Origin: Emticicia agri
GTDB taxonomy: Bacteria; Bacteroidota; Bacteroidia; Cytophagales; Spirosomataceae
NCBI RefSeq assembly: GCF_004168285.1
Contig: NZ_SEWF01000009.1
Location: 124,001 to 188,000, forward strand
Reading direction: 5' to 3'
DNA length: 64,000 nucleotides
Position numbers and translations under genes: made by a program. How positions within the stretch are numbered: position 1 is the first letter of the stretch; each line of letters opens with the position of its first letter. The notes under the pieces are model-generated. The model had not been told where the DNA came from, made no database searches, and saw only the letters and a list, made by a program, of their open reading frames with translations. This document shows, piece after piece, positions 17,783 to 18,712 of the stretch.

Positions 17783-17817
17783 AAAAAACACGCAATCCTC
17801 AATTCGGAACTGCGTGT
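17783..17817 (-). terminator. Intrinsic terminator in DUF819 leader
   Basis: Minus-strand ACACGCA (17817-17811) pairs with TGCGTGT (17794-17788), loop of 16 bases, followed by a six-T run. It lies 63 bases beyond the terminator of the tRNA-like RNA, so it either backs that terminator up or ends another short transcript. Confidence 0.55.
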
Positions 17818-17879
17818 CGCAATTACACTTCATCAACAAACTAAAAACCAAATAATGTTTTTGTTAAGCAAACATACTT

Positions 17880-17923
17880 AAAAAAAAGTATGAAAGAAAT
17901 TTATTCATAAATCTTTCATACTT
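17880..17923 (-). terminator. Intrinsic terminator of the tRNA-like RNA
   Basis: Minus-strand AAGTATGAAAGA (17923-17912) pairs perfectly with TCTTTCATACTT (17897-17886) over 12 bp, with a 14-base loop and an eight-T run (17887-17880). It begins 5 bases after the acceptor-like stem. Confidence 0.88.
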
Positions 17924-18126
17924 CACGCTGTAAGAGGGGGACTCGAACCGCCCACGGTGTAGTTAGCCACAGTACAAATTTTGGTGGTCAATCCCAGTCG
18001 ACTAAAATTGTCCGGCTTTATGCTGCGTTTGTCCTATTATCACCACCCCCGAGACAGGAGGGCATGGCTGCCAATTTCATCACCTTACATTATCATTGTC
18101 AAGGCCGTTTCTCTCTCGCTTTGACA
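17880..18126 (-). ncRNA. tRNA-like non-coding RNA with giant variable arm
   Basis: Transcribed on the minus strand. A tRNA-like domain spans 18089 to 17929. Acceptor-like stem TGTAAGG (18089-18083) pairs with TCTTACA (17935-17929), allowing one G-U. The D arm is ATG/CAT around AAATTGGCAGC, the class II tRNA-Leu pattern with the GG pair. The anticodon-like arm is CCCTC (18062-18058), loop CTGTCTC, GGGGG (18050-18046), with U33 in place and GUC in anticodon position. The T arm has loop TTCGAGT (17947-17941) on GGGCGG/CCCCC with one bulged C. The variable region, 18045-17954, is about 92 bases and can fold into a long hairpin (GGTG/CACC, TAG/CTA, AGCC/GGCT, then ACAATTTT/AAAATTTGT). A 6-bp hairpin (TGTCAA/TTGACA, 18126-18097) precedes it. 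No CCA is encoded. Promoter and terminator flank it. I do not recognise a named family. Confidence 0.7.
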
Positions 18127-18129
18127 TGA

Positions 18130-18162
18130 CAAAGTTACAACATAAATCTATGTAATTGCAAA
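18130..18162 (-). promoter_or_regulatory. Bacteroidota-type promoter of the tRNA-like RNA
   Basis: On the minus strand TTTG (18162-18159) is followed after 21 bases by TAACTTTG (18137-18130), an exact match to the TTG / TAnnTTTG consensus with ideal spacing. Transcription would start near 18125, at the foot of the 5' hairpin. Confidence 0.75.
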
Positions 18163-18247: not shown

Positions 18248-18712
18248 ATGGACAAAAATTTAGAAATTGATAAAACAGATCTGAAGATTTTATCATTATT
18301 AATGCAAGATGCCAAGATGCCTTATACAGCCATAGGAGAAAAAATCTTCGTTTCAGGTGGAACTGTGCATGTAAGAATGGCAAAAATGGAACAGATGGGT
18401 ATTGTAAAAGGTTCACAGCTGATTGTTGACCCGGTTCGATTAGGGTGGGACATCAGTGCATTTATCGGCATATACTTAGATAAAAGTTCTCTGTATGACG
18501 AGGTGGCAGACCAGTTGGAAATGATACCCGAAATAGTTAGTATTAACTACACTACCGGAATGTATAGTATTTTTGCCAAAATCGTGTGTAGAGATACACC
18601 CCATCTGCGTGAGGTACTTCATGATAAGGTGCAAAAAGTACAAGGGATTCAGCGAACTGAAACTTTTATTTCATTAGAAGAACGCACGGTGAGACCCATT
18701 CCGCTTTTGTAA
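18248..18712 (+). CDS. Lrp/AsnC family transcriptional regulator
   Basis: A 154-residue regulator with an N-terminal winged helix-turn-helix (KTDLKILSLLMQDAKMPYTAIGEKIFVSGGTVHVRMAKME) and a C-terminal RAM ligand-binding domain ending in the conserved EETVRPIPLL-like tail (LEERTVRPIPLL). Lrp/AsnC proteins sense amino acids and assemble into octamers. It diverges from the tRNA-like RNA and the DUF819 permease; the 110 bases between its start and the RNA promoter could hold a shared operator, and a permease substrate such as an amino acid would fit, though that is inference. Confidence 0.92.
   Translation: MDKNLEIDKTDLKILSLLMQDAKMPYTAIGEKIFVSGGTVHVRMAKMEQMGIVKGSQLIVDPVRLGWDISAFIGIYLDKSSLYDEVADQLEMIPEIVSINYTTGMYSIFAKIVCRDTPHLREVLHDKVQKVQGIQRTETFISLEERTVRPIPLL

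Follow-up and report, generated by a model that had tools for sequence, protein, structure and literature searches.

The discriminator base of tRNA-Leu, a class II tRNA, is A73, and tRNA-like modules are contained in YrlA RNAs. According to the accessible parts of the sources, tRNAOther of Bacillus cereus is a tRNA-like RNA that works outside translation (PMC3399842), and tRNA-Sec and the allo-tRNAs combine a long variable arm with a non-canonical cloverleaf (PMC7609411). The strong aspartate determinants of tRNA are G73, G34, U35, C36 and C38; G1-C72 and G2-C71 are also important in bacteria, and G1-C72 is termed crucial (PMC9976931, accessible part).

We analyzed a 64,000-nt stretch of the Emticicia agri genome (the window). 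It holds an element best explained as the gene of a putative non-decoding tRNA-type RNA, which would belong to a so far undescribed family found in the class Bacteroidia and in phages.

The RNA gene and its structure

A 163-nt tRNA-like RNA was read from the minus strand (18089-17927), with every tRNA arm present in the correct order (Table 1). An earlier note on this DNA had described an acceptor stem, a class II D arm with GG, an anticodon-like arm, a T loop, 92 inserted bases and a promoter-like site, and all of them were located where it had put them. Its bounds (17880-18162) do contain these features, but the RNA proper is shorter and the rest is promoter and terminator. The T stem, which had been called almost perfect, has one bulged base. 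The 92 nt of the variable region between the anticodon and T stems do not form the single long hairpin suggested previously, but a multi-helix domain in which V1 (4 bp) is separated by a bulge from V1b (3 bp), and V1b by an internal loop (approximately GAYAAA / CUAA) from V2 (8 to 10 bp), with an apical part beyond V2. The hairpin and T run of the 12-bp terminator that the note had reported are present; a terminator scan did not flag them because the loop is longer than the scan permits. By eye, this hairpin is kept in loci of the same genus with G-U and compensated pairs. Upstream of the RNA (up to 170 nt), TANNTTTG was found in 76 of 95 Lrp-linked loci, compared to 13.5 expected from mononucleotide shuffles, and the complete TTTG-N18-22-TANNTTTG in 42 of them. 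Transcription would be driven by this promoter of its own.

Table 1. Positions of the RNA gene, its parts and its neighbors in the window
Feature	Position	Strand	Evidence or remark
tRNA-like RNA, expected mature form	17927..18089	-	163 nt; covariance model match and BLAST in relatives
Acceptor stem, 5' strand TGTAAGG, partner TCTTACA	18083..18089 with 17929-17935	-	7 bp
D arm, class II, 3 bp, GG in loop	18064..18080	-	2/3 pairs covary
Anticodon-like arm, loop CTGTCTC (18051-18057)	18046..18062	-	U35/C36/C38 invariant; stem nearly invariant
Giant variable-arm domain	17956..18044	-	helices V1, V1b, V2 and apical part
V1, 4 bp	18041-18044 with 17956-17959	-	2/4 pairs double-changed; 100% of cells paired
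V1b, 3 bp	18034-18036 with 17960-17962	-	RNAalifold proposal; 40 double-changed cells
V2	18018-18027 with 17968-17977	-	8/10 pairs double-changed; 86.4% of cells paired
Apical motif GGATTGACCAC (family form GGRUNGACCAC)	17984..17994	-	conserved
T arm, loop TTCGAGT, 5' strand with one bulged base	17936..17953	-	4/5 pairs double-changed (28 sequences)
G73-C74 end	17927..17928	-	98/98 copies
-7 box TAACTTTG	18130..18137	-	promoter-like
-33 box TTTG	18159..18162	-	promoter-like; TTTG-N21-TAACTTTG spans 18162-18130
Leader hairpin TGTCAA...TTGACA, small	18097..18126	-	seen in sequence of window
Terminator-like hairpin, AT-rich, 12 bp, then T run	17886..17923; stem 17923-17912 with 17897-17886	-	sequence
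AsnC-type Lrp family regulator gene	18248..18712	+	divergent from RNA; Pfam AsnC domains
Companion element ATTTGGTTTTTAGTTTGTTGATGAAGTGTAATT, C-free	17821..17853	-	followed by hairpin 17788-17817 and T run

Compensatory changes were analyzed in two alignments. The first comprised 18 short-armed members from other genera and a structure written by hand; 94.8% of the cells were paired and 18 of 31 pairs showed changes on both sides, neither value being reached in 500 shuffles. The second comprised 28 long-armed sequences, including the window copy, picked for holding GACCAC. Here 95.7% of the cells were paired and 21 of 34 pairs were double-changed, which none of 500 shuffles reached. In this second alignment the acceptor stem was paired in 100% of the cells, with double changes in 5/7 pairs, and one U-G pair of V2 was kept in 28/28 sequences. 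The anticodon-like stem showed one double-changed pair in the first alignment and none in the second; in phage LR756504 its letters differ and the pairing is kept. Thus, compensatory changes back every arm, the long-arm helices included, save the nearly invariant anticodon stem. Furthermore, covariance model R1, built from the 18 short-armed members with the genome and genus of the window left out, matched the window copy with 100.7 bits over model positions 1-121 of 121. For the D and anticodon arms, RNAalifold favored other pairings. Since the folding energy of the single sequence is ordinary (z = 0.75) and the MFE fold of the window RNA is not a cloverleaf, the case for a tRNA-like fold rests on covariation. 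A pseudogene or a chance resemblance was ruled out by conservation together with covariation.

ARAGORN, a check suggested by the earlier note, called no tRNA in the window. Rfam 15 gave no match for the RNA at gathering score, including RF00005 tRNA (29 bits) and RF00023 tmRNA; at E<=10, the RNA stretch had only six weak matches (E 1.3-8.9), all far under the cut-offs and none to a tRNA. A whole-genome search with the Rfam tRNA model yielded 60 matches at E<=10 that did not include the RNA (150 of 493 first-look candidates were scored). A tmRNA or its replacement was also considered and rejected: RF00023 is unmatched and the genome holds a separate tmRNA (G000:C18). No description of such an RNA family was found among the top-ranked results of a literature search with limited coverage of subscription papers and preprints. 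For the RNA family, its arm domain and its regulator link, this search gave no described counterpart; chassis and ends are of tRNA type, which is why we group it with the tRNA-like RNAs. That it is a real, structured and conserved tRNA-type family, probably non-decoding, we consider very nearly certain. The previous proposal of a tRNA-derived RNA probably acting outside decoding is supported; homologues with compensated stems were found, and an Rfam match is missing. If this is true, a widespread RNA family has escaped notice, since its long insert is not accepted by a tRNA finder and no Rfam model exists for it.

Among distinct copies, the GG of the D loop and TTCGA of the T loop are each kept in 98/98. 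Distinct whole copies without N are 109-186 nt long, with a variable region of approximately 39-115 nt. GGRUNGACCAC occurs in the apical part of the arm in many lineages, and 9 of its 11 positions are invariant in the 28 long-armed sequences, which had been picked for holding GACCAC. We also counted self-complementary arm stretches in sequences without N and of at least 115 nt. Stretches of at least 10 nt were present in 18 of 41 viral copies (2.8 expected from shuffles), and stretches of at least 6 nt in 93 of 176 bacterial copies (102.6 expected). With an excess over shuffles in viral copies and none in bacterial copies, a kissing-loop dimer was dismissed as a family trait. The palindromes GCCGGCCGGC, GCGCGC, GCATGCATGC and TTGTGCACAA lie by the GACCAC motif in viral copies (for example L268, L271, L255 and L256) and are commoner there than in shuffles; copies with such loops could dimerize. 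Pairing of the anticodon loop with GGGA of the arm was inconsistent by eye.

Distribution in Bacteroidia and phages

With the RNA as query, BLAST matched 116 of 148 relatives, and in some of them 2 to 6 copies lie in tandem; homologues in relatives, proposed earlier as a check, thus exist, and compensatory changes are those of the two alignments above. A model search in 30 genomes of the order, 19 of them BLAST-negative, found no member in 18 of these 19, including the single-contig genomes G031, G043 and G054; it also brought to light a member that BLAST had missed (G094) and showed one BLAST match to be false (G116). After this search and the addition of G100, approximately 117 of the 148 are carriers, with 12 unlisted BLAST-negative genomes counted by BLAST only. 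In a sample of the class Bacteroidia, 53 of 296 genomes had a match of at least 75 bits; in addition, G345 has a long copy that has diverged, and G100 an armless one of 77 nt. Outside the class, none of 149 genomes had a member, and no match exceeded 60.4 bits. Carriers among the matches listed are Emticicia, Dyadobacter, Spirosoma, Runella, Hymenobacter, Pontibacter, Algoriphagus, Cyclobacterium and Flammeovirga, as well as Saprospiraceae, a Chitinophaga MAG and two Flavobacteriales MAGs. A plasmid search gave no match, and a plasmid-borne RNA was discarded. ARAGORN called a 77-nt family copy of a relative, in which the long arm is absent (L238:1501-1577, minus strand), as tRNA-Asp(ATC).

Weaker matches to the family model resemble ordinary tRNAs, and 6/6 that were run through ARAGORN were tRNA-Leu. 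The origin from tRNA-Leu that had been proposed is therefore plausible as to the chassis, but not as to a Leu identity, as G73 is found in 98/98 copies and the loop is Asp-like.

Another place for the RNA was phage genomes. A 636-kb uncultured phage record carries it within a tRNA array, and a pattern scan of IMG/VR returned 83 stretches with 60 full copies, 41 of them distinct; of the other 23 stretches, two were truncated at an end and the remainder did not fit the expression used. Viral copies used as queries against phage collections gave no match. With at most two proteins tested per contig, 6 of 10 contigs were found to encode terminase, portal, DNA ligase, RNA ligase or phage-type exonuclease, and no PHROG match was obtained for L334 and L255. 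The phage contigs L281, L307, L270 and L282, two of which are large, have tRNA arrays and also tmRNA genes whose long tag peptides end in ADYAVAA. Phage carriage suggests that the RNA is important during infection. It would be accounted for if the RNA were a decoy or replacement RNA against the tRNA-cutting nucleases of defense systems or toxins, and several of the 60 full copies do lie in tRNA arrays. Long conservation at one chromosomal locus by a regulator speaks against this explanation, which we consider rather unlikely.

The surroundings of the viral copies bear on the choice of synthetase. A tRNA-Ser gene lies at most 20 nt upstream of the RNA in 14 of 60 viral copies (spacing 4 nt in those listed). 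An upstream tRNA within 1.5 kb was found for 22 copies and was tRNA-Ser in 18 of them; 29/60 had no tRNA within 1.5 kb, some of the stretches being short. This neighborhood and the class II shape with G73 (98/98), which is a serine signature, could point to a ligand of seryl-tRNA synthetase or a seryl donor. We regard this as improbable. According to the accessible part of PMC9976931, the anticodon can hardly be of importance for serine, whereas U35, C36 and C38 do not vary among the copies; U1-A72 stands in place of G1-C72; the G100 copy dropped the arm and kept the loop; and no tRNA was detected within 1.5 kb of 212 bacterial copies in the flanks covered. These 212 copies were counted after setting aside 14 start matches without a recognized 3' end (T-loop variants, contig ends and duplicates); 186 of them are distinct, including one that holds N and one that is two copies run together.

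A dense tRNA array is present outside the window at G000:C5:33522-40020, with 14 matches over the Rfam cut-off and three weaker ones, and a TROVE/Ro60-type gene (C5:34624-35343) sits inside it. A scaffold RNA of the Ro60/Y-RNA type would be in keeping with the tRNA-like modules of YrlA RNAs, but a TROVE protein was found in 10 of 58 relatives and was absent from most carriers among them. This largely refutes the scaffold explanation, which we hold to be extremely improbable.

The AsnC-type regulator and the companion element

The gene divergent from the RNA encodes a regulator whose best NCBIfam match is AsnC PRK11179 (154 bits, under the cut-off of 227). An Lrp/AsnC gene is located divergently upstream of the RNA in 95 of 157 loci, with a median gap of 151 nt. 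The permease that had also been considered as a relevant neighbor belongs to a gene cluster found in 26 of the 157 loci and is not a general trait.

We compared the occurrence of the RNA and of the Lrp orthologue (at least 52% identity) in genomes chosen by RNA status. In the first set of 24 genomes, the orthologue was present in 12/12 carriers (63-81% identity) and in 1/12 non-carriers (G104); the best value in G091 was 46%. In the family to which the window belongs, 9/9 carriers and 0/8 non-carriers (best 37%) had it; G048 is one of these non-carriers, and the other tested members of its genus have both. The second set of 56 genomes gave 43/44 carriers and 4/12 non-carriers. The 44 carriers comprised 30 with adjacent and divergent genes, 12 with both genes apart, one contig end and one without Lrp (G094). 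Overall, 55/56 chosen carriers and 5/24 chosen non-carriers (G104, G149, G184, G278 and G367) had the orthologue, a comparison weakened by the facts that adjacent genes can be lost in one deletion, that lineages are not independent and that the genomes were chosen by RNA status. The suggested link to the adjoining Lrp/AsnC gene thus gains support from co-occurrence, and the cases with unlinked RNA and Lrp genes argue for a putative working partnership. An overlooked divergent RNA beside Lrp in RNA-minus genomes was searched for and rejected, as nothing above 7.2 bits was detected in seven stretches with filters off. A common Lrp/AsnC regulator would gain a likely partner in the RNA.

Downstream of the RNA, we observed a companion element. 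Its motif TTTAGTTTGTTGATGAAG was found in 30/30 loci (L002-L031), all from the window's family; it lies in a C-poor stretch, which by eye is followed by a terminator. ATTTGGTTTTTAGTTTGTTGATGAAGTGTAATT has an exact match in its own genome only at the window copy; with up to 3 mismatches, the companion motif had 31 matches, one of them exact, compared to 18 for a reversed control. A promoter-like box, TATGTTTG, precedes the element by eye. The motif begins 1, 9 and 17 nt past the RNA in L195, L019 and L191, respectively. Elsewhere the RNA is followed by different G/U-rich tails or, in many lineages, by a plain hairpin with a T run. Past the RNA, the longest stretch free of C exceeded that in shuffles (p<=0.05) in 54 of 185 bacterial copies and 2 of 44 viral copies. 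In G184, G278 and G367, which have Lrp and no RNA, a different tail with ATAATTGGTT lies beside the Lrp gene. Upstream of Lrp in L385, L386 and L387, a short ATAATTGGTT element with a terminator-like hairpin occupies the same place without a tRNA-like RNA. The same regulator may control the companion element as a small RNA in its own right.

This element is the basis of the strongest rival explanation, in which the tRNA-like part would be the 5' domain and processing signal of an Lrp-controlled small RNA: RNase P and RNase Z would be recruited, and the C-poor tail with its own terminator would be freed as a regulatory RNA. The 30 loci with the motif, its closeness to the RNA in L195, L019 and L191, the C-free excess in bacterial copies and the ATAATTGGTT tails beside Lrp in genomes without the RNA are all on its side. 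However, viral copies show no such excess, many lineages have just the plain hairpin and T run, a terminator-like hairpin separates the RNA from the tail in the window, and the conserved anticodon loop and V domain would be left unexplained. We judge it unlikely.

Loop identity and comparison with known systems

The identity statistics cover 98 distinct copies, all obtained by BLAST or with the model. Copies from the pattern scan were excluded, since that scan could return only sequences with U35, C36 and a pyrimidine at position 37, and for the latter reason base 37 of viral copies was not used. U33 was kept in 82/98 copies, and a purine at 37 was found in 3/98. In contrast, ordinary tRNAs of the same genome (43 distinct, 30 loci) had U33 in 43/43 and a purine at 37 in 42/43, and among 312 tRNAs of viral loci, 310 had U33 and 309 a purine at 37. 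U35, C36, C38, G73 and C74 were present in 98/98 copies and G34 in 89/98. The viral copies kept U33 and G34, which the search pattern left free, in 60/60. Given the pyrimidine at 37 and the incomplete retention of U33, the RNA is probably not used for codon reading; the window copy keeps U33, and there base 37 alone opposes decoding. An odd yet working decoding tRNA-Asp would agree with G34-U35-C36 in 89/98 copies, with the CCA-ready end and with phages keeping the RNA beside tRNAs. It is very improbable in view of positions 37 and 33, the anticodons AUC, CUC and UUC of other copies, and the two ordinary tRNA-Asp(GUC) genes already present in the genome.

The loop CTGTCTC differs from the loop of the genome's own tRNA-Asp, CTGTCAC, solely at base 37. 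We infer that AspRS would recognize, and probably charge, the RNA via U35, C36, C38, G73 and usually G34, the main reason being that synthetase contacts are kept and ribosome contacts are relaxed. G2-C71 and U1-A72 were found in 28/28 and 18/18 sequences of the two alignments. U1-A72 instead of the G1-C72 of bacterial tRNA-Asp and the loss of G34 in 9/98 copies count against reading by AspRS, and the 77-nt copy of G100, which retained the loop without the long arm, counts against the best explanation as a whole. Also on the opposing side, no dedicated paralogue is obvious among the genome's PF00152 synthetase genes, which number three; an extra PF00152 synthetase was rejected.

Recognition by AspRS combined with AsnC-type control of the RNA is the mechanism we favor, with a probability of roughly 0.4. 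The RNA would be cut out and CCA-tailed like a tRNA, as the canonical elbow and the G73-C74 end suggest; C74 is present in 42 of 43 distinct ordinary tRNAs of the genome's loci and the full CCA in two, so that ending at C74, as the RNA gene does, is usual for tRNA genes of this genome and CCA is expected to be added. The structured variable arm would provide a new functional surface. Judging from the co-occurrence, the divergent AsnC-type regulator most likely controls RNA synthesis in response to an amino acid. Regulator and RNA together would then make up a circuit for aspartate/asparagine status, in which the RNA would serve as a ligand of AspRS, as an aspartyl carrier or as a sensor. Tentatively, and with less confidence than in the mechanism, we suggest a new class of aspartate-charged, non-decoding and CCA-tailed tRNA that kept the AspRS code, acquired a big arm domain, serves in Bacteroidia as an AsnC-linked amino-acid-status or aspartyl-donor device and was captured by their phages beside tRNAs and tmRNA. 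If true, synthetase recognition is split from codon reading in nature, and non-ribosomal roles of aminoacyl-tRNA become testable.

With class II tRNAs such as tRNA-Leu (RF00005), the RNA shares the 7-bp acceptor stem, the 3-bp D stem, the class II D loop and the T arm; it differs by its variable region of approximately 39-115 nt with helices of its own, G73, a non-decoding loop and the absence of an RF00005 match. It resembles tRNA-Asp in the G73-C74 end, in a loop identical save for base 37 and in four of five strong determinants, which are invariant in the RNA, and departs from it in U1-A72, the class II shape, pyrimidine 37 and the giant arm. Like YrlA and Y RNAs, it is a structured bacterial ncRNA with a tRNA-like module, but a Ro60-type partner is absent from most carriers tested, and the RNA has no Rfam match. 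tRNAOther, with which it would share a role outside translation, has a Trp anticodon (CCA), occurs in some Bacilli and is part of a larger Fur-controlled transcript, and the accessible part of PMC3399842 mentions no giant arm; as CCA is absent from the loop table of the RNA, membership in tRNAOther was rejected. Finally, tRNA-Sec and the allo-tRNAs, which are alike in the long variable arm and non-canonical cloverleaf, have a longer acceptor domain, other anticodons and a role in decoding, as far as the accessible part of PMC7609411 describes them.
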